Part shown: positions 1 to 25,023 of the stretch, piece by piece | How positions within the stretch are numbered: the stretch's first letter is position 1 | Layout: each line of letters starts with the position of its first letter | Origin: a virus | IMG/VR virus record: IMGVR_UViG_3300030419_005477 | Span: 1 to 37,657 of that record | DNA length: 37,657 nucleotides | Direction: 5' to 3' (one strand) | Notes under the pieces: model-generated | The model's database searches: none | Told to the model about the DNA's origin: nothing | The model's input: only the letters and a program-made list of their open reading frames with translations | Position numbers and translations under genes: made by a program

Positions 1-1452
1 CTAAGACTACTATTAGAAAGTTATTTTCATGGACAAGCACCTATGGAGTTTGATTACACAAAGATAAGACCTGCGGGAGCTCCTATAGCTGGTTTTGGTG
101 GTGTATCAAGTGGACATGAACCATTACAAGAAGTACACGAAGACATCAGAAAAGTTCTTGATAAAAATAGTGGAGAACCAATTACGATAACTACAATCGT
201 AGATATAATGAATCTAATTGGTAAGTGTGTTGTAGCGGGTAATGTAAGAAGAACCGCTGAAATTGTATTTGGTGACCCACATTCAGAAGAGTATTTAGAT
301 TTAAAGAATTACAAAGTAAATCCACATAGAGACCAATATGGTTGGACTTCCAATAATTCTATATTTGCAGAATTGGGAATGGATTATACAGAAACAGCAA
401 AAAGGATTGTAGATAATGGTGAACCAGGATTTGCTTGGTTAGATAATATGAGAATGTATTCGCGGATGAAAAATGGTGGGGATAATAAAGACCATAGAGT
501 TGCAGGTGGAAATCCCTGCTTAGAGCAATCACTGGAAAGTTATGAATTATGTTGTTTAGTAGAAACGTTTCCAAGTAATCACGATTCATTAGATGACTAT
601 AAAAAGACTTTAAAGTTTGCATATCTTTATGCAAAGACTGTCACATTAGGAAAAACGCATTGGGCTGATACTAATAGGGTTATGTTAAGAAATCGTAGAA
701 TTGGTTGCTCTGTTAGTGGAGTTGCTCAATTTATTACTAACCGTGGATTAGATGAATTGAAAAGATGGCTGAATGAGGGATATGATGTTATTCAACAATG
801 GGATAAACAATATTCAGATTGGATGGCAATTCCACGTTCCATTAAAACTACAAGTGTAAAACCAAGTGGGACAGTTTCTCTATTAGCTGGTGCAACTCCG
901 GGATTACATTATCCAGAATCTAGATTTTACATAAGAAGAATAAGATTATCAAAATATTCAGAATTAATACAACCTTTGGAAAAGGCTGGATATAAACTAG
1001 AACCAGCATTTGGTTCAGAGGACACAACGGTAGTAGTTGAAATACCCGTTGATGTTGGAGAGGGTATAAGAACAGCAGCTGAGCTTTCGATTTGGGAACA
1101 ATTCAGTTTAGCTGCTTTTCTTCAACGACATTGGGCTGATAATCAAGTTAGCTGTACAGTTACATTTGATCCCGAATTGGAAGCAAATCAGATTGCTCCG
1201 TGCTTAAATTACTACCAATATCATTTAAAAGGTATCTCTTTACTACCTAGACATGATTATGGAGCTTATCAACAAATGCCATATGAAGCTATAGACGAGG
1301 CTCAATATGAAGAGGAAAAAAATAACCTCGGGAGATTGACGTTTGGAGTAATAAAGAACGAAGAAGCAGAGGTTGATAAATTTTGTAACAATGACAGTTG
1401 TGAAATACCATCGTTTACTGGTGATAATGATGACCAGGAATATGCAAACTAA
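1..1452 (+). CDS. nrdJ: Adenosylcobalamin-dependent (class II) ribonucleoside-triphosphate reductase, 5'-truncated
   Basis: Reduces ribonucleotides to deoxyribonucleotides for phage DNA synthesis using coenzyme B12. The reading frame is open from base 1, so the N-terminal part lies outside the window and the first ATG at 43 is internal. Visible family motifs are the GFGG loop near 97, NPC-x-E at 511-525 (catalytic Cys and Glu; canonical NPCGE is here NPCLE), a second Cys exactly 11 residues later in ELCCLVE, which matches the active-site disulfide spacing of the Lactobacillus monomeric enzyme, and a C-terminal Cys-x4-Cys (CNNDSC) serving as the redox shuttle pair. This set points to the monomeric RTPR type rather than NrdA. 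It is followed by an 87-base gap and then a TonB-dependent receptor, which is an unusual neighbour. High confidence on family. Confidence 0.93.
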   Translation, partial: LRLLLESYFHGQAPMEFDYTKIRPAGAPIAGFGGVSSGHEPLQEVHEDIRKVLDKNSGEPITITTIVDIMNLIGKCVVAGNVRRTAEIVFGDPHSEEYLDLKNYKVNPHRDQYGWTSNNSIFAELGMDYTETAKRIVDNGEPGFAWLDNMRMYSRMKNGGDNKDHRVAGGNPCLEQSLESYELCCLVETFPSNHDSLDDYKKTLKFAYLYAKTVTLGKTHWADTNRVMLRNRRIGCSVSGVAQFITNRGLDELKRWLNEGYDVIQQWDKQYSDWMAIPRSIKTTSVKPSGTVSLLAGATPGLHYPESRFYIRRIRLSKYSELIQPLEKAGYKLEPAFGSEDTTVVVEIPVDVGEGIRTAAELSIWEQFSLAAFLQRHWADNQVSCTVTFDPELEANQIAPCLNYYQYHLKGISLLPRHDYGAYQQMPYEAIDEAQYEEEKNNLGRLTFGVIKNEEAEVDKFCNNDSCEIPSFTGDNDDQEYAN

Positions 1453-1482
1453 ACTTCACATACAAAAAGCGGACAGGCAGAC

Positions 1483-1506
1483 GACGCACCTGTAGAAAAA
1501 TGCGTC
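1483..1506 (+). other. Small inverted repeat upstream of the receptor gene
   Basis: GACGCA at 1483-1488 pairs with TGCGTC at 1501-1506 around a 12-base loop. It lies in the 87-base gap between the reductase stop and the receptor start. It could be a weak terminator, an mRNA hairpin or an operator half; there is no T-tract after it. Seen directly; function unknown. Confidence 0.4.
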
Positions 1507-1520: not shown

Positions 1521-1539
1521 AAGCGAGGAGACGATAAAA

Positions 1540-4269
1540 ATGAAATATCGTAATCTAATCACATCATTTCTACTCATAACAGGATTATTTGCACAATCTA
1601 TCGTTGGAGTTGTGAATGATGGTAAAACGCCACTTCAAGGAGCGAATGTAGTTGTCGAGGGAACTGAGCTGGGATCAGTATCTGACAATGTAGGCAGCTA
1701 TGTTGTAATCAATGTACCAGCCGGTACGTATGATGTAACAGCTTCTTTTATTGGCTATTCTTCAGTGACTAAATCAGTAGTTGTTGGAGATGAAGATGCT
1801 GTAGTCGATTTCAATCTCGAGATTGATGTAGTGTCAATGTCAGAACTTGAAGTGTTAGCTTCACGTGCTGATGAAACAACACCCGTTGCCTATACTACTG
1901 TCAGTAAAGAGGAAATGGAAATACGTCTTGGATCACAAGACATTCCAATGGCACTTAACATGACACCATCTGTATATGCGACAGGACAAGGTGGTGGTGC
2001 GGGTGATGCTCGTATCAATGTAAGAGGTTTTAATCAAAGAAACGTAGCTGTTATGATAAACGGTGTTCCCCAAAATGATATGGAGAACGGATGGGTCTAT
2101 TGGTCTAACTGGGATGGTGTAGGTGATGCTACAGCTTCCATTCAGATGCAAAGAGGTCTATCAGCTGTTAATCTAGCAACTCCGTCAATTGGTGGAACAA
2201 TGAACATCATAACTGATCCTGCTGCACATGATAAAGGCGGAAAACTAAAACAAGAGATCGGTGAAGGTGGATTCTTGAAAACTACATTAAACTACAATTC
2301 CGGGTTAATAAATGATAAATTAGCTTTAAGTGGAACAATAGTACGTAAAACCGGTAACGGATTTATAGATGGAACTTGGACTGATGCCTGGGCCTATTAC
2401 TTCGGAGGTAGTTATGCAGTTAGTGATGAACAGAGGTTTGAACTCTATGCAATTGGAGCACCTCAACGTCATGGTCAAAACCTATATAAACAGAACATAG
2501 CAACTTATTCACAAGAATTAGCTGGTGACATTGATGGATATGACGTCAATGCATTTGCTGAAGGTGAAAAGTTCGAACATGAAGCTGGTAGGTTTTTTAA
2601 CCAAAACGTAGCACCAGTTGATGCATCTTATACAGGCCAACAATATTGGTATATGTATGGTGCAAGAACAACTGATAGGTATAGTTCTGATTTTCTAAAT
2701 GAAAGAGAGAACTTTTTTCATAAACCACTCGTAAACCTAAACCATTTCTTGACTCTAAATGATCAGATGACACTAAGTTCAGTGCTTTATTGGTCTGGTG
2801 GATCAGGAGGTGGAACAGGAACTTATGGGAGCGTTAAACGATTTCCTGCCATCGATGGTAATGCCTGGTACGCCAGCTCACCATGGACATGGGACTGGAA
2901 CGGTGAAATTGCTGAGAACTCAGACAACATCGACGCAGATTGGTCAGATACTGAGAATAGGTCTACAGGTATATTGCGTAATTCAATTAATCGACAAAAT
3001 ACCTACGGATTAATTTCTAAATTAAATTATGATGTTAGTGATGATTTAGAAATACAAGTTGGTATTGACTGGAGAACGGCTGGTATTGAACACGCACGTG
3101 AAGTTCGCGATCTACTAGGTGGTGATTACTATGTTGACTATGCTGATGACAATGCCGCTGATGGTAAGAAAGTTGGATTAGGCGATATAATTGCCTACCA
3201 CAATGAGACCACAGTTGATTGGTTCGGTACTTTTCTACAAGGCAAATACGCTACAGAAAAGATGAACCTATATGGTATGGGAGGTATATCTACAATTGGA
3301 TATACTTACCTAGATCACTTTGCAGTTGATGCTGATGTAGTTGAAGCAGATTGGATCACAACTTTTCAAGTGAAAGGTGGTGGTGTATATAACCTTGATG
3401 ATAGAATGTCCGGATTTGTTAATGCTGGATATGTTCAGAAACCACCAATTCTTGATAATGTGATTGCATATGATGGTACAGTTGCAACTAATCCTGATAA
3501 TGAGAAATTTACTAGTTTCGAGTTTGGTGGAAAGTATGCAAGTGATAAGGTTGGAATCAAGTTGAGTTCATACAATACTCAATGGAAAGATAGAAACCTT
3601 ACCAAATCTGTTGAAACAGGAGCAGGTGACTCAGGTGATACAGACATCATTTACCTCAAAGGTGTAAATCAAAGCCATACCGGTTTTGAAGTTGAAGGTA
3701 AAGTTGCATTACATGATATGGTTGATCTTGACTTAGCGTTTAGTAAAGGCACTTGGAAGTTTGATGGTGATTCTAAAGGTGATTATCAAGAAATGGAGTA
3801 TAATGAAGAAGGTCAAATTGTTGGACAAATGACTACTGAATATACTTATGCTCTTGATGGACTGATGGTTGGTGATATGCCACAAACAGCCTATGTTGGT
3901 GGTCTAACACTAAAACCAATTGCTGGTTTACAACTACAAGGTCTCTACAAAATGTATGATGACAACTATGCTGACTGGTCTCCAGATTCTCGAGAAGTTG
4001 ATGGAGATGAAGACAGAACACAGGTTTGGCAAGCTCCTGGCTATTCCAAACTTGATCTGCATGCATCATATAAACTACCAAAAATTGCAGGATTGGATAT
4101 GACAGTTAGTGCTCATATCTTTAATGCACTTGATGATGTTTATGTACAAGATGCTGTTGATAACTCAAAGTATAATGGGTATGGTGATAAAATGCACTTA
4201 GCTCATAATGCTGAAGTGTTCTTGGGTACACCAAGACATTATAATGTTGGCTTAACAGTCAATTTCTAA
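1540..4269 (+). CDS. TonB-dependent outer-membrane receptor (FCB type) carried by a phage
   Basis: A complete 909-residue TonB-dependent receptor, which would import a ligand through the outer membrane using host TonB/ExbBD energy. In order: a signal peptide at about 1-19 (KYRN then a hydrophobic core ending LFAQ), a carboxypeptidase-regulatory-like beta-sandwich at about 20-105 (GVVNDGKTPLQGANV, then GTYDVTASFIGY), a plug domain at about 115-225 (MNGVPQ-type loop read as MINGVPQNDME, and SIGGTMNI), and a beta barrel ending in an aromatic Phe (LTVNF), as outer-membrane proteins do. The N-terminal add-on domain is typical of Bacteroidota and relatives. The start is fixed by GAGGAG nine bases upstream. 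Hand-counted lines run about 37-50% G+C against roughly 27-31% in nearby phage genes, and CGT arginine codons are commoner, suggesting recent capture from a host. The substrate cannot be read from sequence. No SusD-like partner is present. Confidence 0.95.
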   Translation: MKYRNLITSFLLITGLFAQSIVGVVNDGKTPLQGANVVVEGTELGSVSDNVGSYVVINVPAGTYDVTASFIGYSSVTKSVVVGDEDAVVDFNLEIDVVSMSELEVLASRADETTPVAYTTVSKEEMEIRLGSQDIPMALNMTPSVYATGQGGGAGDARINVRGFNQRNVAVMINGVPQNDMENGWVYWSNWDGVGDATASIQMQRGLSAVNLATPSIGGTMNIITDPAAHDKGGKLKQEIGEGGFLKTTLNYNSGLINDKLALSGTIVRKTGNGFIDGTWTDAWAYYFGGSYAVSDEQRFELYAIGAPQRHGQNLYKQNIATYSQELAGDIDGYDVNAFAEGEKFEHEAGRFFNQNVAPVDASYTGQQYWYMYGARTTDRYSSDFLNERENFFHKPLVNLNHFLTLNDQMTLSSVLYWSGGSGGGTGTYGSVKRFPAIDGNAWYASSPWTWDWNGEIAENSDNIDADWSDTENRSTGILRNSINRQNTYGLISKLNYDVSDDLEIQVGIDWRTAGIEHAREVRDLLGGDYYVDYADDNAADGKKVGLGDIIAYHNETTVDWFGTFLQGKYATEKMNLYGMGGISTIGYTYLDHFAVDADVVEADWITTFQVKGGGVYNLDDRMSGFVNAGYVQKPPILDNVIAYDGTVATNPDNEKFTSFEFGGKYASDKVGIKLSSYNTQWKDRNLTKSVETGAGDSGDTDIIYLKGVNQSHTGFEVEGKVALHDMVDLDLAFSKGTWKFDGDSKGDYQEMEYNEEGQIVGQMTTEYTYALDGLMVGDMPQTAYVGGLTLKPIAGLQLQGLYKMYDDNYADWSPDSREVDGDEDRTQVWQAPGYSKLDLHASYKLPKIAGLDMTVSAHIFNALDDVYVQDAVDNSKYNGYGDKMHLAHNAEVFLGTPRHYNVGLTVNF

Positions 4270-4279
4270 AATAGAACGT

Positions 4280-4307
4280 TTAAGGGGCGAATTATTTCGC
4301 CCCTTAA
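4280..4307 (+). terminator. Strong hairpin terminator after the receptor gene
   Basis: A 12-bp perfect stem (4280-4291 with 4296-4307; core AAGGGGCGAA) closes a four-base TTAT loop, 10 bases after the receptor stop. It is followed by TTGTTGCCTTT, a broken T-run. Such a G+C-rich hairpin is unlike anything else in this AT-rich window and gives the receptor its own transcription end. Confidence 0.85.
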
Positions 4308-4344: not shown

Positions 4345-6849
4345 ATGTATCAAAACGTATACACAACCTGGACAAAGAAAGGACCTGTAGTTCACATATG
4401 GGATGATGAACGTGGTTACATTGTTCTCAAACATGATAGATATGCATATGCAAAATCACCAACCGGTAAACACATATCAATTTATGGTGATAAATTAAAA
4501 CGCATTCGGAAATGGGATGATGATGAACAAGATCAGTTATTTGAAGCTGATATACATCCAGAGATGAGAACTCTAATAGATTTGTATGCTGACTCTGATG
4601 AACCTTCGATTGGTCATAGAGTGGTGTTTTTTGATATTGAGGTAGAGATGAAGGGTGGATTTCCAAACAAAGATAATCCTAGACAAGCTATAACATCAAT
4701 ATCTATATATGATAAAACCACAGATAAGATGTATGCATTAGTTTGGGATCCACAAACAAGATTTACGCAACTAAATGATGATACAGTTGAAGTTCAATGT
4801 TACGAGACAGAATATGAATTACTGCAAGGATTTTTGCTATTAATGCAAACATTAAATCCTACAATTTTATCCGGATGGAATACAGATCTTTTTGATATAC
4901 CATATCTATACAACAGAATGTGTGCAGTAGTGGGAGAAGAACTAGCTAAAAGTATAAGTCCTATCAATAATATATTTTATAGAGAAGCGCAAGGAATATA
5001 CAAAATAGCTGGTGTTTCTAGTTTAGATTATCTAAAGCTATATAGAAAGTTTAGTATGGGTGATAGACCCTCTTATGCATTAGATGCAATTGGTGAACTT
5101 GAAGTGGGTATGAAAAAAATTAAGTATGAGGGTACCTTACAAGACTTATATGAAAGTGATATCACAAAGTATGTTGAATACAACGTCCGAGATGTTGAAT
5201 TATTAAAACAATTAGATGAGAAGCTCGGATATATTGAGACAGCTCGAGCTTTATGTCACAAGGGTCATATCCCATATGAAAATATTTATACACAAAGTCA
5301 GATATTAGATGGTGCAATATTAACTTATCTAAAGAGACGAAACATTGTAGCACCTTCTAAGAAGATTGGTAATAGTGCTAATTATAGTGGTGCTGGAAGA
5401 CAGCATATCAGTGGAGCATTCGTAAAAGATCCACAGTCCGGATTACATGAATGGGTTTTTGATATAGACGCAACGTCAATGTATCCTAGTATTATTATGT
5501 CACTAAATATAAGTCCGGAAACAAAGAGAGCTAAAATTATAGATTGGTCAGCAGATGAACGATTTAGAGAACCAACTAAGAAATGGTCTGTTGTAGAATC
5601 AAAAGGTAAAACACAATCACTAGATGGATCTCAGATAGATCAATATTTGGAAAAAAATAACTACAGTTTATCTGCAAATGGGATTATGTACTCAAAGGAT
5701 TATACAGGTGTGCTGGGATCGATTTTAAAAGAGTGGTTTGAAGAACGTGTATCATATAAAAAGAAGAGAGATGAGTTTCTAAAAGAGGGAGATACAGTCA
5801 GAGGTGGGTTTTATGATAGAAGACAATATGTACAAAAGATTTTATTGAACAGTTTATATGGAGTTCAAGCGCTTCCTACATTTAGATTTCATGATTTGGA
5901 AAATGCTGAAGCTACAACATCAACCGGACAAGCTATAATCAAATTTGCAGAAAAAGCGGGTAACCAATTTTATAATAAAGAATTAAATGATAATAAAGAT
6001 TGGTGTGTTTATATAGACACTGATAGCTTGTTCTTTAGCGCTAAACCTCTAGTATTGAAACGTCAACCAAATATAGATACAAATGATATTGACACAATGG
6101 TCGGACAAACAATTTCTATATGTCGAGAATTTGCGCAATATGTTAATGATGGATTAGATGTATTTGCTAAGAGAGCATGTAACTTGAATGAACATGGATT
6201 CTCGTTTAAACAAGAAGTTGTAGGCCGTGCTGGTTTATTTATAACTAAAAAGCGTTATGGTATGTGGTTGGTTGATAAGGAAGGTCACAGAGTCGATAAG
6301 TTAGATGTTAAAGGTATGGATATTATTAGATCTAATTTTCCAGAAGGATTCAAAACCTTGTTAAGTGATGTGTTGATGAAAATTTTAAAACTTGAAGATA
6401 AAGATGGAGTTGATCAAACTATACTTGATTATGAGAAGAAAGTTACAATGCTTCCTTTGGAACTAATTGCAATGCAAACGGGTGTAAAAGGAATTAAAAA
6501 ATATACGACTAAAGAAGGTCAACCATCAAAAGGTTGTCCGGTTCATGTACGTGGAGCAATTAATTATAATTTTCTGTTGACTCGTATGGGTTTAAGTGGT
6601 AAGATCGAACCGATCAAATCAAATGAAAAGATCTTTTGGGTATATCTAAAACAAAATCCGTATGGGTTTAATAACATCTCATTTAAGAAGGAAGATAATC
6701 CAAAAGAGATTGAAGAGTTTATAAAAACGTATGTCGATAGTAAAAAGAATTTTAAAAAAGCAGTTAATAATAAAGTGGAAGCATTCTATGGAGCACTTAA
6801 TTGGACATTACCAGTGGATAGTGTAAATACATTAGATGCTTTCTTCTAA
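4345..6849 (+). CDS. 43: Family-B DNA polymerase with 3'-5' exonuclease (T4 gp43-like)
   Basis: Replicative phage DNA polymerase, 834 residues. Exonuclease motifs are complete: Exo I D97-x-E99 (FFDIEVE), Exo II N179-T-D181 in GWNTDLFD, Exo III Y279-x3-D283 (YNVRD). Polymerase motifs follow: motif A D375-A-T-S-M-Y-P-S (canonical SLYPS, here SMYPS), motif B K498-x3-N502-S-L-Y-G, motif C Y556-I-D558-T-D560-S, then KKRYG for primer-template grip. All catalytic residues are intact. It acts with the clamp and clamp loader encoded at 11217-13419. The ATG has only a weak ribosome site in the 37 bases after the receptor terminator, so initiation may depend on an unseen promoter or translational signal. 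Confidence 0.97.
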   Translation: MYQNVYTTWTKKGPVVHIWDDERGYIVLKHDRYAYAKSPTGKHISIYGDKLKRIRKWDDDEQDQLFEADIHPEMRTLIDLYADSDEPSIGHRVVFFDIEVEMKGGFPNKDNPRQAITSISIYDKTTDKMYALVWDPQTRFTQLNDDTVEVQCYETEYELLQGFLLLMQTLNPTILSGWNTDLFDIPYLYNRMCAVVGEELAKSISPINNIFYREAQGIYKIAGVSSLDYLKLYRKFSMGDRPSYALDAIGELEVGMKKIKYEGTLQDLYESDITKYVEYNVRDVELLKQLDEKLGYIETARALCHKGHIPYENIYTQSQILDGAILTYLKRRNIVAPSKKIGNSANYSGAGRQHISGAFVKDPQSGLHEWVFDIDATSMYPSIIMSLNISPETKRAKIIDWSADERFREPTKKWSVVESKGKTQSLDGSQIDQYLEKNNYSLSANGIMYSKDYTGVLGSILKEWFEERVSYKKKRDEFLKEGDTVRGGFYDRRQYVQKILLNSLYGVQALPTFRFHDLENAEATTSTGQAIIKFAEKAGNQFYNKELNDNKDWCVYIDTDSLFFSAKPLVLKRQPNIDTNDIDTMVGQTISICREFAQYVNDGLDVFAKRACNLNEHGFSFKQEVVGRAGLFITKKRYGMWLVDKEGHRVDKLDVKGMDIIRSNFPEGFKTLLSDVLMKILKLEDKDGVDQTILDYEKKVTMLPLELIAMQTGVKGIKKYTTKEGQPSKGCPVHVRGAINYNFLLTRMGLSGKIEPIKSNEKIFWVYLKQNPYGFNNISFKKEDNPKEIEEFIKTYVDSKKNFKKAVNNKVEAFYGALNWTLPVDSVNTLDAFF

Positions 6850-6859
6850 GGAGAGAATA

Positions 6860-7303
6860 ATGGGTAAACATAGAAGTTATAAAAGATTTATAGGATATAG
6901 TACAGCATTTCGTCAATGGAAGGCTGATTCACATTGCAATATGATTCATGGTTATGCCTTTTGTTTTAAGGTATGGTTTGAAGGTGAATTAGATGATAGA
7001 GGCTGGGTTATAGATTTTGGGTGTTTTAAACGTAATGGAGTAAAAGAGTGGATGAAACATATGTTTGATCATACCACTTGTGTAGCAGCAGATGATCCGG
7101 AACTTGAATTGTTTGAAGAAATGTATAGACGTGGTATAATAGATCTTAGAGTGTTGGAAGATGGTGTAGGATGTGAAAAGTTTGCAGAACTAATTGGTAA
7201 CTACTTACAAGAAATAGTACACAAAGAAACAGATGGTAGAGTAAAGGTGCATAAATGTCAAGTGTGGGAACATAACGATAATATGGCTGAATACTATGTC
7301 TAA
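6860..7303 (+). CDS. queD: 6-carboxy-tetrahydropterin synthase (QueD-like)
   Basis: T-fold enzyme that turns dihydroneopterin triphosphate into 6-carboxy-tetrahydropterin, step 2 of 7-deazaguanine synthesis. The start at 6860 is chosen over an in-frame ATG 24 bases upstream because AAGGAG precedes it; it gives 147 residues. Visible motifs are C26-x3-H30-G (canonical CxxxHGH), WVIDFGCFK at 49-57, FDH at 69-71 and a late VWE at 135-136, equivalent to the catalytic Glu. Two usual zinc-binding histidines differ: the first is replaced in STAF, and HGH reads HGY. I recall HGY forms in phage relatives, so this is probably a phage subfamily and not a dead gene. It overlaps queE by 8 bases. Confidence 0.87.
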   Translation: MGKHRSYKRFIGYSTAFRQWKADSHCNMIHGYAFCFKVWFEGELDDRGWVIDFGCFKRNGVKEWMKHMFDHTTCVAADDPELELFEEMYRRGIIDLRVLEDGVGCEKFAELIGNYLQEIVHKETDGRVKVHKCQVWEHNDNMAEYYV

Positions 7304-8048
7304 AGTTCTTCCAATATTAGAATTATACAGATGCGTACAATCAGAAGGTAGTAGATTTGGAACTCCAACTATTGCTGTGAGAACAACAGGGTGTACTCAT
7401 CGATGTTATTTTGGTGAAGGTGGTTGGTGTGATAGTTGGTATACTAGCATTCATCCGGAGAAAGGAAAATATACTTGGGATGATATTCATAAAATTTATG
7501 ATGATAATCCACACATCAAGGAAATGATGTTGACAGGTGGATCACCAAGTATGCATAGAGATTTAGTAAATGATCTTACACAGTTTGCCCATCAGCGTGA
7601 AATATTTGTTACAATGGAAACAGAAGGTTCACATGTAATACAAACAGACATACCAATTGACCTAATAAGTCTAAGTCCAAAATTTAGTAATTCTGTTCCA
7701 GTGATTGGAGCTGTCACACCAAAAGGTCAAGTAGTTGATCAGAAATTTGTTGACGTACATAATAGAATGAGGCTAAATTTAGATACGATAGAAGAGTTAA
7801 TATCATACCATTCCGATTATCATTTCAAACCGGTTTGGGATGGGACAGAAGAAAATATTAATGAAATAGAAATGTTTCGAGTTGAATTGAATATACCAAA
7901 AAATAAAACTTATATCATGCCAGCAGGAGACACGAGAGAAACTTTGATAGAAATGTATCCAAAAGTGTTTGAACTCTGTGCTGAGAGAGGATATAGAATG
8001 ACTGGTAGAGATCATATAATTGCATTTGACACTGAAAGGGAGGTATAA
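7296..8048 (+). CDS. queE: 7-carboxy-7-deazaguanine synthase (QueE-like radical SAM)
   Basis: Radical SAM enzyme that contracts carboxy-tetrahydropterin to 7-carboxy-7-deazaguanine (CDG). Length is 250 residues. The N-terminus ELYRCVQSEGSRFGTP is the QueE signature, followed by the Fe-S cysteines C33-x3-C37-x7-C45 (GCTHRC, then FGEGGWC), and MLTGGSP at about 88-94, a SAM-binding GG(E/S)P motif. The last cysteine spacing is seven rather than the usual two residues, a loop variation discussed under findings. It is translationally coupled to queD upstream and to the kinase downstream, whose ATG overlaps this stop codon. Confidence 0.9.
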   Translation: MSKVLPILELYRCVQSEGSRFGTPTIAVRTTGCTHRCYFGEGGWCDSWYTSIHPEKGKYTWDDIHKIYDDNPHIKEMMLTGGSPSMHRDLVNDLTQFAHQREIFVTMETEGSHVIQTDIPIDLISLSPKFSNSVPVIGAVTPKGQVVDQKFVDVHNRMRLNLDTIEELISYHSDYHFKPVWDGTEENINEIEMFRVELNIPKNKTYIMPAGDTRETLIEMYPKVFELCAERGYRMTGRDHIIAFDTEREV

Positions 8049-8635
8049 TGAATATAATAGGTGTATGCGGTAAAGGTGGTTCAGGAAAAGATACTATAGC
8101 TAATTATTTAGTAGACTATCACCATTACAATAGAGTAGCAGCTGCTGATGCTATGAAAGTTGATTTGTGTAACTATCTTAATATGGACCTTGAAACATTA
8201 GAGAAGATAAAGAATAAAGAATTGACGCTTGTTGATGAGCTGTATCATGAAGAAGGATTTATGGATTATGGCACATTTTCAGTAAGAAGATTCCTACAGT
8301 TGTATGGTATGGATATGAGATATAGAATAGCAGATACTTACTGGTTAGAAAGATCAATCAAAGAAAAGGTAAAAGAACTTGGTACCAACGGTGAAACTAA
8401 TATAGTTGTATCTGATGTAAGATTTGAAATTGAATATGATTGGATAAAGTCTAATGGTGGTGATGTTATATATGTTGATGGTAGAACAGGATTGACTAAA
8501 CATCAAAGTGAACACGTGTCTGAAAATTTTGTAAATACAACTGCAAAAGAAAAGTGTGATTACATTATTAATAACATTGGTAGTTTAGAAACATTATTTA
8601 AACAAGTTGAGGATTATTTAAATGGCAAGAATTAG
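8048..8635 (+). CDS. Phage deoxynucleoside monophosphate kinase (T4 gp1-like)
   Basis: P-loop kinase that phosphorylates dNMPs to dNDPs from degraded host DNA or from the phage reductase route. The Walker A loop is GKGGSGKD at residues 8-15; VVSDVRFEIEYDWI at about 120-133 is the conserved substrate/Walker B region of phage dNMP kinases. 195 residues, usual length about 200-240. GGGAGG lies just upstream and the ATG overlaps the queE stop (TAATG). Its place inside a deazaguanine cluster may be ordinary nucleotide metabolism, or it may serve a modified nucleotide; the sequence cannot decide. Confidence 0.85.
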   Translation: MNIIGVCGKGGSGKDTIANYLVDYHHYNRVAAADAMKVDLCNYLNMDLETLEKIKNKELTLVDELYHEEGFMDYGTFSVRRFLQLYGMDMRYRIADTYWLERSIKEKVKELGTNGETNIVVSDVRFEIEYDWIKSNGGDVIYVDGRTGLTKHQSEHVSENFVNTTAKEKCDYIINNIGSLETLFKQVEDYLNGKN

Positions 8636-8978
8636 AGTAAAGCATATAGTATTAGGCACACATAATTGGCCTGGTGCTGATGAACATTTTCCTGAAGTAG
8701 GATTTTTAAAACATGAACATCATCATGATTTTCATTTTTATGTCGAGTGTGATGTTGAGCATCATGATAGAGAAGTAGAGTTCATAATGTTGAGAATGGA
8801 CTTGATGAGAATAATTGATACATGCTTTGAAGGTAAATATATGAAAAAATTTGGTGCTATGAGTTGTGAAATGATAGCGTCGAATGTATTGAAACATTTA
8901 ATTGATAAATACGGAGAGAGGAATTGGAAAGTTTCTGTCTTCGAAGACGACATACAAGGAGGTATAATTGAAGATTGA
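8622..8978 (+). CDS. Histidine-rich conserved phage protein of unknown function
   Basis: 118 residues, not assigned to a named family. It contains a striking His/acid stretch: HNWPGADEHFPEVGFL, then KHEHHHDFHF, then EHHDREVEF, with SCEMIA near residue 84. The pattern H-x-W, a FL-x(3-4)-HxH block, and HxDREVEF resembles uncharacterised phage proteins I have seen near queD-type genes. The histidines could bind a metal. It overlaps the kinase by 14 bases and the next gene by 11, so it is co-translated with the deazaguanine genes. Function unknown; a T-fold or metal-enzyme role is speculation. Confidence 0.75.
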   Translation: MARIRVKHIVLGTHNWPGADEHFPEVGFLKHEHHHDFHFYVECDVEHHDREVEFIMLRMDLMRIIDTCFEGKYMKKFGAMSCEMIASNVLKHLIDKYGERNWKVSVFEDDIQGGIIED

Positions 8979-9789
8979 TATTTGCTTTATTACAAGCACC
9001 CCACATTTAGAATCCCATGCTGCTTTGTCCAATAGACATATGGCATTAGCTCATCTTGTCTTGCAAGATAACAAGTATGCAAGATTTTATAAGAATACAA
9101 CAAAATATACGATAATGGATAATTCAGCTTTTGAGTTTGAAGAACAGGGTAGAGGAGTACCACGAGATATGGTATACAAAGCTGCAAAGAAAATAGAAGC
9201 TGATGAGATATGTGCTATTGATATATTGTTTGACGGTCCAGGTACTGTCGATAGTGTAAGAGACTTCACAAGTTATATTCTTCACAAAGATGTGTGGATG
9301 TTTGATAGTACCAAATTCATGGCTATACCACAAGGAAGAACAGCTGACGAATGGTTAGATTGCTACGAAGCTCTAGTTCAAATGAAAGAAATAGACGTTA
9401 TTGGTTTATCTAAATTATCTGTACCTGAATCGTTTGTTGGTAATCATCATGAAGAAGGTAATTGCACACGTGGTAGAATTAAGTGTATAGACTTTTTAGT
9501 TGATCACAAAATGACGCCTGATAAGTTTGGTAAGGAGACTCATTTACTCGGATCAGATAATGCTGGTATAAATGAGCTATCATACTATTATGATAACGAC
9601 TATAGCTTCATCAGATCTAATGACACATCTATGCCATTTGTTTATGGATATAGTGGTGAAAAGATAACAGATGGTTTTGTTGATAATATTGTGATGGAAA
9701 AATTAGATTTTAACAAACAATTATCTCATATTGAAATACAAACAGTTGATGATAATTTTATAGCTTGGAGAACACTACATGTCGATTGA
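8968..9789 (+). CDS. TGT/DpdA-like protein, candidate deazaguanine transglycosylase
   Basis: 273 residues starting at TTG, a choice supported by AAGGAGG seven bases upstream and by the absence of any ATG in the first 20 residues. The sequence reads as a TIM-barrel of the tRNA-guanine transglycosylase superfamily: IMDNSAFE at 49-56 (the DSGAF-type active-site loop), AIDILFDG at 83-90, IPQGRTADEWLDCYE at 120-134 (compare VQGG), IDVIGLSKLS at 142-151 (compare GYAIGGLSVG), HLLGSDNAGINEL at 192-204 and RSNDTS at 216-221. DpdA proteins of this superfamily insert deazaguanines into DNA. Sitting between queE and folE2, this fits a DNA-modifying role. The zinc-cysteine set of true TGTs is not evident. 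Confidence 0.6.
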   Translation: MKIDICFITSTPHLESHAALSNRHMALAHLVLQDNKYARFYKNTTKYTIMDNSAFEFEEQGRGVPRDMVYKAAKKIEADEICAIDILFDGPGTVDSVRDFTSYILHKDVWMFDSTKFMAIPQGRTADEWLDCYEALVQMKEIDVIGLSKLSVPESFVGNHHEEGNCTRGRIKCIDFLVDHKMTPDKFGKETHLLGSDNAGINELSYYYDNDYSFIRSNDTSMPFVYGYSGEKITDGFVDNIVMEKLDFNKQLSHIEIQTVDDNFIAWRTLHVD

Positions 9790-10693
9790 TTATTCAGAAA
9801 AGATGCCAGATCTCATATTCAAATATGACGATGAACACGTACCAAATGAACTACCTGATCCACAAATTGATCCAATTATACCAGGAGCCAGGGTACCGTT
9901 AAAGAAGGTTGGAATAGCACCAGTAGATCTTCCTGTTCGTTTAATGAGACGTGACGGAACAAGCCAAACGCTTCAGGCAGAAGCATCGTTATACTGTTCT
10001 TTAGATGATGTTAATGCAAAGGGGTTAAACCTATCTCGCTTATACTTATTAATGCATGATAAGATAAAAGATAAGCTGTCATTAGATGGAATCAAAGAAG
10101 CTCTTGCAGAGTTAGCTGATAGACAGGGATCAGACAATGCTTTTTGCAAATTGAGATTTAAGTACCCATGGACTCAGGATTCTTTGAGATCTGATTTACA
10201 AGGTCATATAGCTTATAAGACGGTACTTGATGGATCATATTCAAAAGATAGTGGATATAAATTTTATCTGACAGTTGAATATGTTTACTCATCAACATGT
10301 CCATGTAGTTTTGAATTAGCTTATGATGCAAGAACTAAACGAGATGCAGCCGCAAATGCACATAGTCAGAGGTCAATTGCAACTGTAACCGTTCAGTTTG
10401 ATCCGGATAAGATTGTGTGGATAGAAGATTTAGTAGAACTGTGTAGAAAGCATGTTCCAACGGAAGTGCAGATAGTAGTAAAGAGAAAAGATGAACAGGC
10501 TTTTGCAGAGTTAAATGGTTCAAATCTTTTGTTTAGTGAAGATGTAGCAAGAATATTACATCAAGCATTAGATGAATGGTATGAAGAAGAAAAGATTTTC
10601 GACTTTAGTGTCTCGATATCACATGAAGAAAGTTTGCATCCATGGAATGCTATCGCTGTGACAACAAAAGGCATTGAAGGTGGCTTAACCTAA
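9779..10693 (+). CDS. folE2: GTP cyclohydrolase IB (FolE2-type)
   Basis: Converts GTP to dihydroneopterin triphosphate, the entry step of 7-deazaguanine (and folate) synthesis. 304 residues. Family signatures: VGIAPVDLPVRL at 44-55, KGLNLSRLYLLM at 81-92, STCPCS with C174 and C176 at the metal site, HSQRS at 195-199, and EESLHPWNAIAV at 283-294 (compare the ESIHNHDA motif). This is the FolE2/MptA fold and not the common phage FolE type IA. The start overlaps the preceding stop region by 11 bases. Together with QueD and QueE it completes GTP to CDG. Confidence 0.88.
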   Translation: MSIDYSEKMPDLIFKYDDEHVPNELPDPQIDPIIPGARVPLKKVGIAPVDLPVRLMRRDGTSQTLQAEASLYCSLDDVNAKGLNLSRLYLLMHDKIKDKLSLDGIKEALAELADRQGSDNAFCKLRFKYPWTQDSLRSDLQGHIAYKTVLDGSYSKDSGYKFYLTVEYVYSSTCPCSFELAYDARTKRDAAANAHSQRSIATVTVQFDPDKIVWIEDLVELCRKHVPTEVQIVVKRKDEQAFAELNGSNLLFSEDVARILHQALDEWYEEEKIFDFSVSISHEESLHPWNAIAVTTKGIEGGLT

Positions 10694-15276: not shown

Positions 15277-16665
15277 ATGTCTAAGAAAAAGATACTGTTG
15301 CTATCAGATGATTTAAGAATGCATTCCGGAGTTGCCGTAATGTCTCATGAAATAGTAAAAAACACACTACACCACTATGATTGGGTTCAGATTGCTGGAG
15401 CGATACAACATCCTGAAAAAGGTAAGATTTCTGACATGTCAGAGGTAGCAAAGAAGGATTGGGGAATAAAAAATCCATATTTAAAATTATATCCTGTGGA
15501 TGGTTACGGTGATCCAATGACCCTCCGTGAAGTAATTAAAATGGAAAAGCCTGATGCAATATTGCACTATACAGATCCACGTTTTTGGATATGGCTATAT
15601 CAAATGGAAGGTGAGTTGAGAAAAATTATGCCCATATTCTTTTATACTATTTGGGATGATTTACCATATCCAATGTATAATAGAAATTATTATAAGAGTT
15701 GTGATTTGATGATGGCAATATCAAAACAATCATATAATATCGTAAAGAAAGTTGTTCCGGAACTTGAAGATTGGCAGCTATCATATGTACCACATGGTAT
15801 CGATACAAAAAAATTCTTTCCAGTCAGTACAGTTAATACAGAATTTCTGCAATTCAAACAAAAATTTGGATTTGATAAATATGAATTTCTAGTTTTATAT
15901 TTAAATCGAAATATAAGACGTAAACAACCAGGTGATGTTGCTTTAGCATTTAAACATTTCGTCGATCAGCTACCAGAAGACAAGAAAGATAAAGTAGCAT
16001 TAATCTGGCACACTGCACCTGTAGATGAAAATGGTACAGATTTACCAAGAATGTGTAAGCATATAATACCAGATTGTAAAGTAATCTTTACATATCCAAT
16101 TAACAATGGTCCTTTTGATGATAAATCTATGAATTTCTTATACAATGCATCTGACATGTATATAAATCTCGCAAGTAATGAAGGATTTGGTTTGGGTTCA
16201 TGTCAGGCATTAGCAGTTGGTAAACCTATACTAATTAATGTTACTGGTGGATTGCAAGATCAATGTGGATTTAAGTTGAACGATAAATTCCTGGATGAAA
16301 AAGATTACTTAGAGATTGAATCATTACATAATAATAAAATGTGGAAGGACAATCCGGAACTTACTCATAGTAGCTGGGCATTTCCGGTTTGGCCTACAAA
16401 CAGATCTTTACAAGGATCACCACCTACTCCATACATTTTTGATGACAGGTGTCAGTATGATGATGCTGGAGATCAAATATTAAATATCTATAACCTAACT
16501 GAAGAAGAAAAGCAAACGATATCTACAGATGCTATGGACTGGATCAAGAAGAAAGAGACAGGTATGACAGCTGAGTTGATGGGACAGAGGTTTATTGATA
16601 GTATGGACAGAGCATTTGATAACTGGAAACCGGTTGATAATTTTAGATTGGAGGAAGTAGCATGA
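15277..16665 (+). CDS. GT4-like glycosyltransferase
   Basis: 462 residues, GT-B fold. N-terminal KKILLLSDDLRMHSGVAVMSHEIV is a Rossmann start with the glycine loop; YVPHGIDTKKFFP near residue 172 is the usual domain linker of GT4 enzymes; SNEGFGLGSCQALAVGKPILINV near 305 is the EGFG nucleotide-sugar phosphate-binding motif. It transfers a sugar from an NDP donor to an unknown acceptor. AGAGG precedes the ATG. First enzyme of the 17-kb sugar module and overlapped by a second GT4-like gene. Confidence 0.87.
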   Translation: MSKKKILLLSDDLRMHSGVAVMSHEIVKNTLHHYDWVQIAGAIQHPEKGKISDMSEVAKKDWGIKNPYLKLYPVDGYGDPMTLREVIKMEKPDAILHYTDPRFWIWLYQMEGELRKIMPIFFYTIWDDLPYPMYNRNYYKSCDLMMAISKQSYNIVKKVVPELEDWQLSYVPHGIDTKKFFPVSTVNTEFLQFKQKFGFDKYEFLVLYLNRNIRRKQPGDVALAFKHFVDQLPEDKKDKVALIWHTAPVDENGTDLPRMCKHIIPDCKVIFTYPINNGPFDDKSMNFLYNASDMYINLASNEGFGLGSCQALAVGKPILINVTGGLQDQCGFKLNDKFLDEKDYLEIESLHNNKMWKDNPELTHSSWAFPVWPTNRSLQGSPPTPYIFDDRCQYDDAGDQILNIYNLTEEEKQTISTDAMDWIKKKETGMTAELMGQRFIDSMDRAFDNWKPVDNFRLEEVA

Positions 16666-17948
16666 ATAAAGTTGTAATGTGTGGACCGTTTAGTTCGAGA
16701 TCTGGTTATGGAGATCATGCAAGATCAATTTTTGCATCATTAGTAACAATTGAAGATTTTGATATATTGATATTAGATGTTCGTTGGGGTGATACACCAC
16801 AAGATGCTTTAGAAAATGATGGCAAAATAGAAACGCAAATAAAAAAACGATTGACTAATCCATCAGAATTAAGTTTTCAACCTGATATCTATATAGATAT
16901 TCGAATACCAAATGAATTTATAACACCTGGAAAAATCAATGTTGGTATAACAGCTGGTATTGAAACAAATATAGTTTCCCCGGCATTTCTTCAAGGTGCA
17001 AATCAAATGGACTTATTAATAGTTCCATCAGAACATGCCAAGACGGGGTTTATGGAAACTACATATGAAATGGAACAAAATGGACAACCTACCCAACAAT
17101 CATTACAATGTACAGTACCAATTGAAGTTGTGCATGAAGGTTTAGATCCAAACATTTTTAGAAAACTTAGTAAAAAAGAAATTGATAAAAAATTTGCAAA
17201 TAAAATTAGTAATATTGTAAAACGACCAAGTGCATTATTTGTAGGTCAGTGGACTCAAGGTGGGTTTGGAAATGATAGAAAGGATATAGCACGACTAGTT
17301 AAATTGTATATTGAAACATTTGGAAATAAACCAAACCCACCCGGTTTATTAATGAAGACGAACGGAGCAACATATTCACAATTAGATTATCATGAAGTAA
17401 AAAAGAAAATAGCAGCAATAAAAGAGCAGTTTCCACCAGGCATAAAAGTACCACCAATTTATTTATTACATGCTAATTTAACTGAGGAAGAAATGAATCA
17501 GTTATACAACCATGATAAGATATTTGGATTGATAACATTGACACATGGAGAAGGATTTGGCCGACCAATGTTGGAAGCCACGTTTGCTGAACTTCCAGTG
17601 TGTGCTACTAAATGGTCCGGACAATTAGATTTTCTTCCGGAAGACAAATGTTGTTTAATTGAAGGTGAGATGACACAAGTACCCGATGATGTAGTGTGGG
17701 AAAATATCATCGTAAAAGAGTCATCATGGTTTACAGCTTCCGAGATGTCAGCTTATGAAAGATTTAGAAGTTTTTATAATGAGAATCACACTAAGTGGAA
17801 ACGTTTAGGAAAAGAGGTTTCAGAACAGAATAGAAAAGATTTTAGTTTGGATGCAATGACTGATAAACTTGTTAATATTTTTAGCGATTTAAAAAATAAA
17901 ATTCCTAAACCTATGCAGATCAAATTACCTAAACTGGAGACGATATAA
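16662..17948 (+). CDS. GT4-like glycosyltransferase
   Basis: 428 residues. Starts NKVVMCGPFSSRSGYGDHAR, which is the GT4 N-terminal glycine motif, followed by DPNIFRKL at the linker and THGEGFGRPMLEATFAELPVCAT near residue 292, the EGFGRPxLE donor site with E-x7-E geometry. Related in layout to the preceding gene, perhaps an old duplication. Probably adds a second sugar in the same glycan. ATGA overlap with the upstream stop. Confidence 0.87.
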   Translation: MNKVVMCGPFSSRSGYGDHARSIFASLVTIEDFDILILDVRWGDTPQDALENDGKIETQIKKRLTNPSELSFQPDIYIDIRIPNEFITPGKINVGITAGIETNIVSPAFLQGANQMDLLIVPSEHAKTGFMETTYEMEQNGQPTQQSLQCTVPIEVVHEGLDPNIFRKLSKKEIDKKFANKISNIVKRPSALFVGQWTQGGFGNDRKDIARLVKLYIETFGNKPNPPGLLMKTNGATYSQLDYHEVKKKIAAIKEQFPPGIKVPPIYLLHANLTEEEMNQLYNHDKIFGLITLTHGEGFGRPMLEATFAELPVCATKWSGQLDFLPEDKCCLIEGEMTQVPDDVVWENIIVKESSWFTASEMSAYERFRSFYNENHTKWKRLGKEVSEQNRKDFSLDAMTDKLVNIFSDLKNKIPKPMQIKLPKLETI

Positions 17949-18310
17949 TGGATGTTAAATTAGATTGTCCGCTATGTGGTACACATAACTTAAAAGTACA
18001 GGGTACTGCTATGCAATGTCAGCATTGTGGAATGGCAACAGATGAAGTATATAAGGACTTGGATGAACAATCTGAACCGTATGATGTATTGCAAGAGGAT
18101 ATGAAAACGTTTGTAAGATTTATAGACAATCAAATGTGGATACCATCACAAGTGCAATTTGAATTTGGTGCAATAACACCATACAATGATAATGGAGTGT
18201 TGATGTACGAAGCGGTTTTCGGTGAAGATAAAATTGAAAGTAAGTTGTTTTCTGAAGCACTTGGATTTGTAATAGAAAAGTTTCATGGCCAGGCTACGTC
18301 GCAGATATAG
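17948..18310 (+). CDS. Zinc-ribbon-headed hypothetical protein
   Basis: 120 residues. An N-terminal zinc ribbon, CPLCGTHNLKVQGTAMQCQHC at about 8-28 (two CxxC pairs), is followed by an acidic linker and a mixed alpha/beta region with FVRFIDNQMWIPSQVQ. No family recognised. Starts by TAATG overlap after GGAGACG. Its last 26 bases overlap the next gene in a different frame. Confidence 0.75.
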   Translation: MDVKLDCPLCGTHNLKVQGTAMQCQHCGMATDEVYKDLDEQSEPYDVLQEDMKTFVRFIDNQMWIPSQVQFEFGAITPYNDNGVLMYEAVFGEDKIESKLFSEALGFVIEKFHGQATSQI

Positions 18311-18764
18311 ACACGCGTTCCTAGGAGATGTTATAGACATAGCAGATGCTAGGGTGTTACCAGGAATGGTAGTAACCTTCTATTATAATGCTGTTGGTGT
18401 TTATGATAGAAATCCATCATGCTTCGTCATGCATAAAGATAAAGATTTTTTATATGGTTTCAATTTAAATTATTTACCAATTAATCAATGTAAGGATATT
18501 TTTCGTCGACTAAATGTTATGTTAGATTTTGTAACTGAAAATAGAGTACAAGCACCTAGACCGTATAATAGAATTGAAATGGCAACTAGATTTACACCAT
18601 CTGCATTTGATGGAAAAATGTTGTATAAAAACCTAAGTGTCAATCCAAAGGCAAAGGAAGCTTATAGAACATATAAGCAATTGAAGCTGTCAGCATTGAA
18701 AGTATTAAATATAGATTATACTAGTCTTGGTTTCACATTAGTTAATAAGGTAAAGGAAGATTAA
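18285..18764 (+). CDS. Conserved phage protein of unknown function
   Basis: 159 residues, basic N-terminus (MARLRRRYRH). The block GMVVTFYYNAVGVYDRNPSCFVMHKDKD then YGFNLNYLP resembles an uncharacterised family common in T4-like marine phages that carries a (F/Y)xYnA ... P ... G-NLHYLP pattern. No catalytic motif is visible. Sits among glycosyltransferases but may belong to virion or replication functions, as both flanking genes overlap it. Confidence 0.7.
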   Translation: MARLRRRYRHAFLGDVIDIADARVLPGMVVTFYYNAVGVYDRNPSCFVMHKDKDFLYGFNLNYLPINQCKDIFRRLNVMLDFVTENRVQAPRPYNRIEMATRFTPSAFDGKMLYKNLSVNPKAKEAYRTYKQLKLSALKVLNIDYTSLGFTLVNKVKED

Positions 18765-19390
18765 TGAAAATATCATATTCATTACTAACTCATAATGAAA
18801 CGGACAACTTAGAAAAGCTGTTACAGTTTTTAGTTGAACATAAAGATAAAGAGGATGAGATTGTTATATTAGATGATTACTCTACTAACGAAAAAACTAA
18901 AACTATATTAGATGGTTATGTGTCAATACATAACATGAAATTTGAACAGAGATATCTAAAAGGAGACTTTGCTGGACAAAAGAACGCACTCAGATTAATG
19001 TGCTCAGGGGATTGGATTTTTAATATAGATGCTGATGAACTACCACATAAGTTGATGTTTAAAAATCTAAAAACAATATTGGAACATAATAAAGATATTG
19101 AAATGTTTTATGTACCAAGAATCAATACAGTCAGTGGACTTACTCAGCGACATGTTATGAGATGGGGCTGGCAGGTTAATGATAAAGGTTACATCAATTG
19201 GCCTGATTGGCAGTCTAGGCTATGGCAGAATAAATCGCATATTTACTGGGACAGATCTGTGCACGAGACATTAACAGGATTCAAAAATTATTCCTTTCTA
19301 CCACAGGAAGAACGATTTGCTATCCAACATCCAAAAACTATTGAACAGCAAGAAAAACAAAATGAATTTTATTCCAAGATCCCAAGATAA
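18764..19390 (+). CDS. GT2-like glycosyltransferase
   Basis: 208 residues, GT-A fold. SYSLLTHNETDNLEKLL is the family-2 start, EIVILDDYSTNEKT supplies the uridine-binding Asp region, and WIFNIDADELPH near residue 86 contains the DxD metal motif. A WPDWQSRLW block follows, typical of small bacterial GT2 (WaaE-like) enzymes. The C-terminus overlaps the next gene. Confidence 0.85.
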   Translation: MKISYSLLTHNETDNLEKLLQFLVEHKDKEDEIVILDDYSTNEKTKTILDGYVSIHNMKFEQRYLKGDFAGQKNALRLMCSGDWIFNIDADELPHKLMFKNLKTILEHNKDIEMFYVPRINTVSGLTQRHVMRWGWQVNDKGYINWPDWQSRLWQNKSHIYWDRSVHETLTGFKNYSFLPQEERFAIQHPKTIEQQEKQNEFYSKIPR

Positions 19391-19976
19391 AGTACTTGTA
19401 ATTGGTAACGGACCAACTGTAGTTGACAAACTCAATCTAGATTTGATATCAAAATACGATATCATCGTCAGGATAAATAGGGGTTTTTTTGAGGGTGTTG
19501 AGCGATATAAAGATGTAATTGGAACTAGAACTGATTTGCTTTATATACATGATGGATTTTGCACCGGTGAATGGTTTGGTAAGAGATCAGTTGATGATGT
19601 TAAACAAGTGTTTGTGGTTATACCAAACTTCAAATACGGTATGATGAGACAACTGAAACACTCGTATCCAGATTTTGAAATTGTACCAAGAACAATAGAA
19701 GAAACTGTAACTGGGGAATATAATTTTGAAGGTAGGTGGCCTACTACAGGGTTAGAATGTTTATTACATTTGAAGGAAATGTATAGCGATGTAACGATTG
19801 TGGGGTTTGATAATAATACAAGTGAAGGTAAGAAATATACAAATTATCATTTCTATAAACATACTGATAAGAGAACAATGGAAGACATGCAGAAAAGTAG
19901 ACCAGATCATAAATTTAAATTGGAACGAGTAATTATAGATTCAATGATAAATGCAGGGGCATTAAAGGTTATATGA
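19362..19976 (+). CDS. GT29 sialyltransferase-like protein
   Basis: 204 residues from ATG 19362; an in-frame TTG at 19317 would lengthen it but lies deep inside the upstream gene. KVLVIGNGPTVVDKLNLDLI followed by YDIIVRINRG matches sialyl motif L of family 29 glycosyltransferases, and GRWPTTGLECLLHL followed by VTIVGFDN matches motif S (PTTG). These enzymes use CMP-sialic-acid-type donors, so this protein fits the two CMP-sugar synthetases encoded at 20878 and 30141. Membership is by motif; true donor unknown. Confidence 0.75.
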   Translation: MNFIPRSQDKVLVIGNGPTVVDKLNLDLISKYDIIVRINRGFFEGVERYKDVIGTRTDLLYIHDGFCTGEWFGKRSVDDVKQVFVVIPNFKYGMMRQLKHSYPDFEIVPRTIEETVTGEYNFEGRWPTTGLECLLHLKEMYSDVTIVGFDNNTSEGKKYTNYHFYKHTDKRTMEDMQKSRPDHKFKLERVIIDSMINAGALKVI

Positions 19977-20878
19977 AAACTATACAAATAGTGATACATG
20001 TGTTTGCACACGAGATGCATGATTTTCAAAGAGTAGTTGAGCAGCTAAAACGTAATTTAGAATTTACAGAAGCAAAGTCTTATGCCTTTGATATTACGTT
20101 AAATGTCAGCGAAGATAAATATAATTGGAAAGATTCAATATTACAACCGTCCTTTTTTATTCAACAGTTTGAAGATCTGTGTGCAATGCTTCCCAGCACA
20201 ACAACACAAGTTATTTACAGTGGTGACTATGGATGTAACAGTGTTAGGAGAAAAGCGGCTCGGACTAGTTCACATGACTATATTGGATACCTAGATTTGG
20301 ATTTGCATTTTAGTATGTACACATTACATTATATAGATAACGCAATACAAACACTTGGTGATAATCAAATAATAGTCAGCGGACAGATTCCAAGGTTGTG
20401 GGATGATAGTTGGAACGTAATTAGTAATGATGAATTTATCGATATGGGTGTGGAAAGTAAAATATGGTTAAGAATTGATCCGTATAGTATAGATAAACTC
20501 GTGTACAAAAGATTAAAAGATATTCAGTTGAAAGCATTGCCGTATGTTAAGATTGGTGGTGGGTGGATGAATTTTATTAATCAAGAATTATTAAATGAAA
20601 TAGATATTCCTGATTCATTAGGTGCATATGGAATGGATGATACTTATGTTGAAAACGCTTGTAACCTACTTGTACAACAGCATAACAGACAAATACAACA
20701 ATACGTTGTTGATAATTTGTTAGTATGTGAAAATAGAAAATATGAAAAGTTTGAACCATATTTGAATAATGGTTATCTTACAATGAATGGAGACTTAGAG
20801 TTTTACAAAAAAGATATGGCTTCAAAAGCACAAGATAACTGTCAAATTGAATTACAAAAGTTGATGGAAAAATATTAA
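19973..20878 (+). CDS. GT-A-like glycosyltransferase, putative
   Basis: 301 residues. TIQIVIHVFAHEMHDFQRVVEQL opens like a GT-A fold and HDYIGYLDLDLHFSM near residue 100 holds a DLDLH metal-binding-like motif. GAYGMDDTYVE near 221 is the usual downstream acid motif. Most probably a sugar transferase, although the fold call rests on few residues. ATGA coupled at both ends. Confidence 0.65.
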   Translation: MKTIQIVIHVFAHEMHDFQRVVEQLKRNLEFTEAKSYAFDITLNVSEDKYNWKDSILQPSFFIQQFEDLCAMLPSTTTQVIYSGDYGCNSVRRKAARTSSHDYIGYLDLDLHFSMYTLHYIDNAIQTLGDNQIIVSGQIPRLWDDSWNVISNDEFIDMGVESKIWLRIDPYSIDKLVYKRLKDIQLKALPYVKIGGGWMNFINQELLNEIDIPDSLGAYGMDDTYVENACNLLVQQHNRQIQQYVVDNLLVCENRKYEKFEPYLNNGYLTMNGDLEFYKKDMASKAQDNCQIELQKLMEKY

Positions 20879-24124: not shown

Positions 24125-24125
24125 A

Positions 24126-25019: not shown

Positions 25020-25023
25020 TATT

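Follow-up and report, generated by a model that had tools for sequence, protein, structure and literature searches.

A TonB-dependent receptor gene with an RNA pseudoknot leader between nrdJ and polB in uncultured ocean phages

The window, a linear IMG/VR virus record of 37,657 bases, contains an intact gene for a TonB-dependent receptor (TBDR) between nrdJ and polB and on the same strand (Table 1). Together with an RNA pseudoknot, a Shine-Dalgarno sequence and, usually, a terminator, this gene forms a cassette. We read it, at an even balance of belief and doubt, as a cassette of T4-like phages for an auxiliary importer that would be co-transcribed with nrdJ and whose cargo is perhaps nucleotide-derived. 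Hundreds of uncultured ocean virus contigs carry such a receptor beside a gene for an enzyme of DNA building blocks, which suggests that infected cells are made to import raw material, possibly nucleotides. Known phage auxiliary genes mostly rewire intracellular metabolism; with a conserved outer-membrane importer, a phage would alter what the infected cell takes up, and this would matter for the question of which organisms use up the ocean's dissolved organic phosphorus and DNA. In the window, polB is followed by queD, queE and genes for a dNMP kinase, FolE2, a clamp loader and an exonuclease.

Table 1. Features of the receptor locus (positions in the window, or receptor residues where indicated)
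Feature	Position	Strand	Description
nrdJ, class II (adenosylcobalamin) ribonucleoside-triphosphate reductase	1..1452	+	5' part cut by contig start; TIGR02505 E 2.2e-79, phrog_367 E 8e-102
H-type RNA pseudoknot, receptor leader	1473..1506	+	S1 1473-1477/1489-1493; S2 1483-1488/1501-1506; A-rich loop 1494-1500
Receptor Shine-Dalgarno GAGGAG	1525..1530	+	Direct sequence reading
TonB-dependent receptor (TBDR) ORF	1540..4269	+	909 aa, no internal stop
Receptor domain layout (residues)			Putative signal peptide ~1-19; carboxypeptidase-regulatory-like domain 20-103; plug 112-230; barrel 231-909
Receptor linker, TonB-box-like ELEVLASRA (residues)	~102-110		By eye
12-bp GC-rich inverted repeat, likely terminator	4280..4307	+	Just 3' of receptor stop; T-run weak in window, better in most relatives
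polB, T4-type family-B DNA polymerase	4345..6849	+	phrog_262 E 2.9e-184

The sequence-only reading of this frame as an intact TBDR between nrdJ and polB is borne out by its 909 residues, its Pfam domains and a predicted barrel. CarbopepD_reg_2 was found at residues 22-103 (E 2.5e-15) and Plug, the domain expected of a TonB-dependent receptor, at residues 112-220 (E 1.8e-13; PF07715, 51.3 bits versus a cut-off of 23.9); the Pfam barrel model PF00593 gave no match to the ORF. The AlphaFold2 model, built on 56 homologues (mean pLDDT 80.8, pTM 0.77), is a plugged beta-barrel, for which Foldseek retrieved PqqU/YncD, Fiu and FhuA from the PDB (E down to 1.8e-36); the large C-terminal barrel of the class, normally of about 22 strands, is predicted here from the match of the whole modelled fold to FhuA and PqqU. 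The N-terminus is of the Sec type, with a putative signal peptide (MKYRNLITSFLLITGLFAQ) ending in LFAQ, and the last residue is a terminal aromatic, Phe909 (both by eye). A SusC-type glycan transporter was rejected, as no SusC model (NCBIfam) matched the receptor and SusD was absent among the families listed for the same-strand neighbours of its cellular orthologues.

The proposed search of phage genomes for TonB-receptor genes found relatives encoded in 322 viral stretches (scan of viral contigs), the best 80 of the 322 at 75-86% identity. With a second scan, started from a diverged member, 129 contigs were examined in total. The order nrdJ-TBDR-polB is kept in most of these, with a median gap of 84 bp between nrdJ and the receptor (<200 bp in 118 of 124 contigs) and with polB <300 bp downstream of the receptor in 69 of 112; the long contigs (14 of 14) have exactly one receptor each, and two receptor contigs (130 and 57 kb) encode a T4-type major capsid Gp23. 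Identical junctions in many independent contigs rule out an assembly chimera, and the concern raised earlier over both ends of the gene is thereby removed.

Annotated GenBank phages gave no DNA-level match to the receptor, and protein-level matches there do not exceed about 29% identity and lie mostly in short gut virome contigs and megaphages. Two gut virome 'phage' records (GenBank MT837399 and MT837128) contain full-length TBDRs at about 29% identity; these are short unannotated contigs that may be bacterial. In a viral protein structure library the single strong full-length match, at 12% identity, was to a receptor annotated as SusC from an uncultured marine phage. In four contigs (L027, L030, L031 and L052) the same nrdJ-receptor cassette is followed by a very different polB (24-26% identity to that of the window), which suggests modular exchange. 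The gap between receptor and polB is an insertion hotspot, which in relatives holds genes that by eye are dUTPase-like and glutamine synthetase-like (L019, 12836-13354; L073, 12811-13833).

The locus is variable. Of the 67 viral loci that combine a closely related nrdJ with sufficient downstream sequence, 24 contain the receptor and 43 lack it. In many receptor-less loci about 80 bp separate nrdJ from the start of polB. Several empty sites have a polB promoter-like TTGAC...TATATT into which the nrdJ end leads, and at several filled sites the same type of promoter lies 3' of the receptor and its hairpin. On the nrdJ tree, receptor presence requires at least six changes, two of them forced by well-supported branches. 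As it is present or absent among close relatives, the receptor is dispensable cargo. The sequence-only reading had missed these empty sites, as well as the pseudoknot leader and the terminator.

Where present, the receptor is under strong purifying selection, with a median pairwise dN/dS of 0.14 among phage copies and regional values of 0.35 (N-terminal domain), 0.07 (plug) and 0.14 (barrel); the pre-plug linker, the expected place of the TonB box, is 98% identical over 81 phage copies. Plug and linker, the most constrained parts, are what energised transport would need, and energised ligand import by the receptor is predicted as likely. The GC content of the gene (~0.39-0.40 versus ~0.33 for the rest of the window) is raised mostly at codon positions 1 and 2; its GC3 of 0.24 matches that of phage genes, and the receptor is therefore no fresh, unadapted import. 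The gene is host-derived, fixed in a phage lineage, selected, and outside the virion and replication core, as is characteristic of phage auxiliary metabolic genes, with a putative metabolic effect.

These data bear on two other explanations. The patchy presence in close relatives might be taken for a passenger gene or an assembly artefact; this is most improbable in the face of the recurring junctions, the strong purifying selection and a dedicated, covarying leader, and the earlier suggestion of a recent passenger is rejected for a gene that is lineage-wide and has the above dN/dS and a phage-like GC3. Phages classically use TBDRs, FhuA for instance, as their receptors, and pb5-FhuA structures were among the structure-search matches of the receptor model; a diverged copy of the host receptor might thus stop competing phages from binding, or change the infected surface, and such receptor swapping or superinfection exclusion is conceivable, as many genomes of the Marinimicrobia, the probable host phylum, have an orthologue. 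A decoy, however, needs neither the plug constraint (dN/dS 0.07) nor the linker identity (0.98), and with the periplasm-facing plug and the TonB linker as the most constrained parts, the superinfection block is disfavoured and considered unlikely.

Of 127 phage leaders, 125 accommodate both stems of the pseudoknot; one more leader, that of L006, shows it by eye with a shorter loop. In the alignment of 44 distinct sequences, standard pairs fill 96.9% of cells, whereas slid controls are paired to at most 50.8%. Six of the 11 pairs are altered on both sides and the remaining five are invariant; double-sided changes amount to 35 cells versus 7.2 in shuffles, and both stems show compensatory changes (e.g. 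GACACA/TGTGTC, GGCACA/TGTGCC and GACGCA/TGCGTC; ACAGG/CCTGT, ACTGG/CCAGT and ATAGG/CCTAT). No Rfam family matched the pseudoknot at gathering or relaxed thresholds, with chance-level matches only at E<=10, and a known Rfam riboswitch or cis-regulatory element as the identity of the leader was rejected accordingly. The covarying pseudoknot is thus a compact, testable RNA regulator that has no Rfam family. The motif AGGAGA of the ribosome-binding site is likewise kept across aligned phage receptor leaders.

In a pattern scan of viral contigs, one pseudoknot per contig was found among the matches listed, also in the two longest contigs, where it occurs once each. Among the matches listed it precedes this receptor in 103 of the 103 with enough downstream sequence, five of which have no nrdJ match upstream; these five, and the empty sites, which have no pseudoknot, exclude a 3' element of nrdJ. 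The pattern was found in none of 245 Marinimicrobia genomes (one mismatch allowed; a diverged form could be missed), and with this reservation an inheritance from the host was rejected as well. Because all 103 of these matches precede the receptor and none of the 245 genomes has the pattern, the pseudoknot belongs to the phage receptor gene.

The position of the pseudoknot resembles that in the gene 32 leaders of T4, T2 and RB69, in which an AU-rich leader follows an H-type pseudoknot that lies some 67 nt ahead of the start codon (PMC3014915). Stem S1 of the receptor leader likewise begins 67 nt before the ATG; the likeness is one of position and pseudoknot topology alone, and the gene 32 element controls a single-strand-binding protein, whereas that of the window precedes a receptor. 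Since the spacing equals that of the T4 gene 32 operator (67 nt from the start codon; PMC3014915), binding of a phage protein is one possible mode of action; ligand sensing is another. The T4-type gene 32 pseudoknot was described in a 2010 review as possibly the only viral pseudoknot that serves translational autoregulation (PMC3014915).

A GC-rich stem lies within 70 nt after the receptor stop in 67 of 80 relatives, versus 1% in random windows, and a sigma-70-like promoter match within 200 nt after the receptor, i.e. on the polB side, in 33 of 79 versus 2.9% in controls; no such promoter was found in any of 78 leaders over the 120 nt up to the receptor ATG. As the leaders gave no promoter match and both the stem and the promoter match follow the receptor, nrdJ and the receptor are probably on one transcript.

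The best cellular matches of the receptor are from Neomarinimicrobiota (59-68% identity). Orthologues in the FCB group (Marinimicrobia, Balneolota, Bacteroidota, Calditrichota and others) have the same domain order at 45-68% identity, and their plugs are 77-88% identical to that of the phage receptor (88% for Marinimicrobia, 77% for the other FCB orthologues). A tree of 161 sequences places the phage copies on one side of a branch with a support of only 50, and one sequence from a Marinimicrobia MAG joins them with a support of 100. Under a strict search, an orthologue is present in 124 of 244 Marinimicrobia genomes; for the phylum to which the Bacteroidales MAG L143 belongs, the figure is 34 of the 296 genomes sampled. 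The phage host is thus probably a member of the Marinimicrobia (SAR406), a prediction resting mainly on the phylogeny of one gene. A gene for an SOS-response-associated peptidase (SRAP) is located directly upstream of the Marinimicrobia orthologue in L082, L085, L089, L090, L097 and L100.

A vitamin B12 importer that serves the adjoining cobalamin-dependent reductase had been suggested as a ligand assignment, and the 84-bp linkage to nrdJ in most carriers would agree with it. A cobalamin riboswitch is present in nine of 12 Marinimicrobia genomes; however, in the four genomes with both features listed on one contig the gene that closely follows it encodes another TBDR, of 664-711 aa, and none was found near the true receptor orthologues, where one would be expected for a BtuB in the host phylum. 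The receptor has the TBDR fold in common with BtuB, and the riboswitch-linked candidate in Marinimicrobia is a separate, shorter TBDR. There are also close relatives with nrdJ and without the receptor, and a few carriers have no nrdJ match upstream. B12 as the ligand is therefore not supported, and this explanation is held to be very unlikely. The broader proposal of a nutrient receptor installed by the phage fares better: the gene is intact, selected and transport-competent in appearance, and import could occur.

A different hint comes from the cellular orthologues, which outside Marinimicrobia are often located upstream of a nucleotide pyrophosphatase. Of 76 non-Marinimicrobia loci long enough to judge (three genomes counted twice), 25 have such a gene (PF01663) directly downstream and in the same orientation; these loci come from KSB1, Calditrichia, Balneolota, Ignavibacteria and Bacteroidales, and in the checked genomes with this adjacency the enzyme class has one strong member only. 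Among solved structures, ENPPs and bacterial nucleotide pyrophosphatases come closest to this enzyme; members of PF01663 also cut other phosphodiesters. Other neighbours at single loci are S1/P1 nuclease (L085, L099), e(P4) acid phosphatase (L115, L142, L147) and deoxynucleoside kinase (L082, L123). In Marinimicrobia, the pyrophosphatase is directly downstream in none of 47 loci, and one locus (L085) has a pyrophosphatase and the S1/P1 nuclease about 4 kb upstream of the orthologue. Nucleotide-salvage enzymes of these kinds were not found in the phage loci, and the genes beyond the pyrophosphatase in the cellular loci do not narrow the ligand.

Because the link is not seen directly downstream in Marinimicrobia, the ligand is a carry-over from orthologues at about 45-55% identity, many of which lack the pyrophosphatase. 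Energised import of some other nutrient (siderophore-metal, peptide, phospholipid or sugar-phosphate) is a possible though somewhat doubtful reading, in which the pyrophosphatase would reflect phosphorus or lipid scavenging and the cassette would relieve a different limitation. It is compatible with the generic fold, which among solved structures comes nearest to PqqU/YncD, siderophore receptors and FhuA, with the nucleotide-enzyme link being mostly missing in Marinimicrobia, and with FetAB-like genes (ABC ATPase and UPF0014) near two Marinimicrobia orthologues (L085 and L094); yet FetAB-like permeases and SRAP are neighbours without substrate specificity, and genes for siderophores, haem or glycans are not a recurring feature of the orthologue neighbourhoods. 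Nucleotide-derived cargo is considered the likeliest single ligand class from these gene neighbourhoods; it is a lead rather than a result, and the weakest part of the explanation.

For the preferred reading, i.e. an auxiliary importer of T4-like phages, the following course may be envisaged. A T4-like lineage, which probably infects Marinimicrobia (SAR406), would carry a self-contained receptor cassette between nrdJ and polB; the receptor message would be made together with that of nrdJ, and its translation tuned separately by the pseudoknot. The receptor would be exported, built into the outer membrane and energised by TonB-ExbBD of the host, and would bring an additional nutrient into the cell during infection, most likely nucleosides, nucleotides, NAD-like or other phosphodiester breakdown products, and the imported compound would feed the phage DNA precursor pathway next door. 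More tentatively still, the phage may make the infected cell feed on extracellular nucleotides and nucleic-acid breakdown products via its own TonB receptor, with translation set by the dedicated pseudoknot as a new riboswitch-like or protein-bound operator, and may thereby couple import to DNA replication.

TBDRs in phages are not wholly new. In the literature on phage-encoded TonB receptors, the sole relevant find was a SusC-annotated TBDR in the marine megaphage Mar_Mega_1 and in LR745206, which was proposed as an auxiliary uptake gene (PMC9723777). The receptor of the window is similarly phage-borne and proposed for uptake; that of Mar_Mega_1, however, is located in a megaphage of >650 kb, and the available part of that paper describes no dedicated RNA leader (PMC9723777), whereas the receptor of the window belongs to a lineage-wide cassette adjoining nrdJ in T4-like phages. 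Both the cassette, as a lineage-wide unit, and its RNA leader appear new, and the cassette opens a way to study by experiment a phage and host that are otherwise uncultured.

Further genes of the window were observed outside the cassette. The genes queD, queE and folE2 (6836-10693) are also located 3' of polB in L001 and L022, and queD and queE also in L020, and are absent after polB from most other receptor-bearing contigs; 7-deazaguanine DNA modification is possible. A long run of glycosyltransferase, GDP-mannose-dehydratase-like, aminotransferase, cytidylyltransferase-like and DAHP/NeuB-like genes at 15277-32337 (assigned partly by eye) represents a surface-sugar or glycan-synthesis cluster in a phage, and a peptide deformylase-like gene was recognised by eye, from a motif, at 33501-34088.
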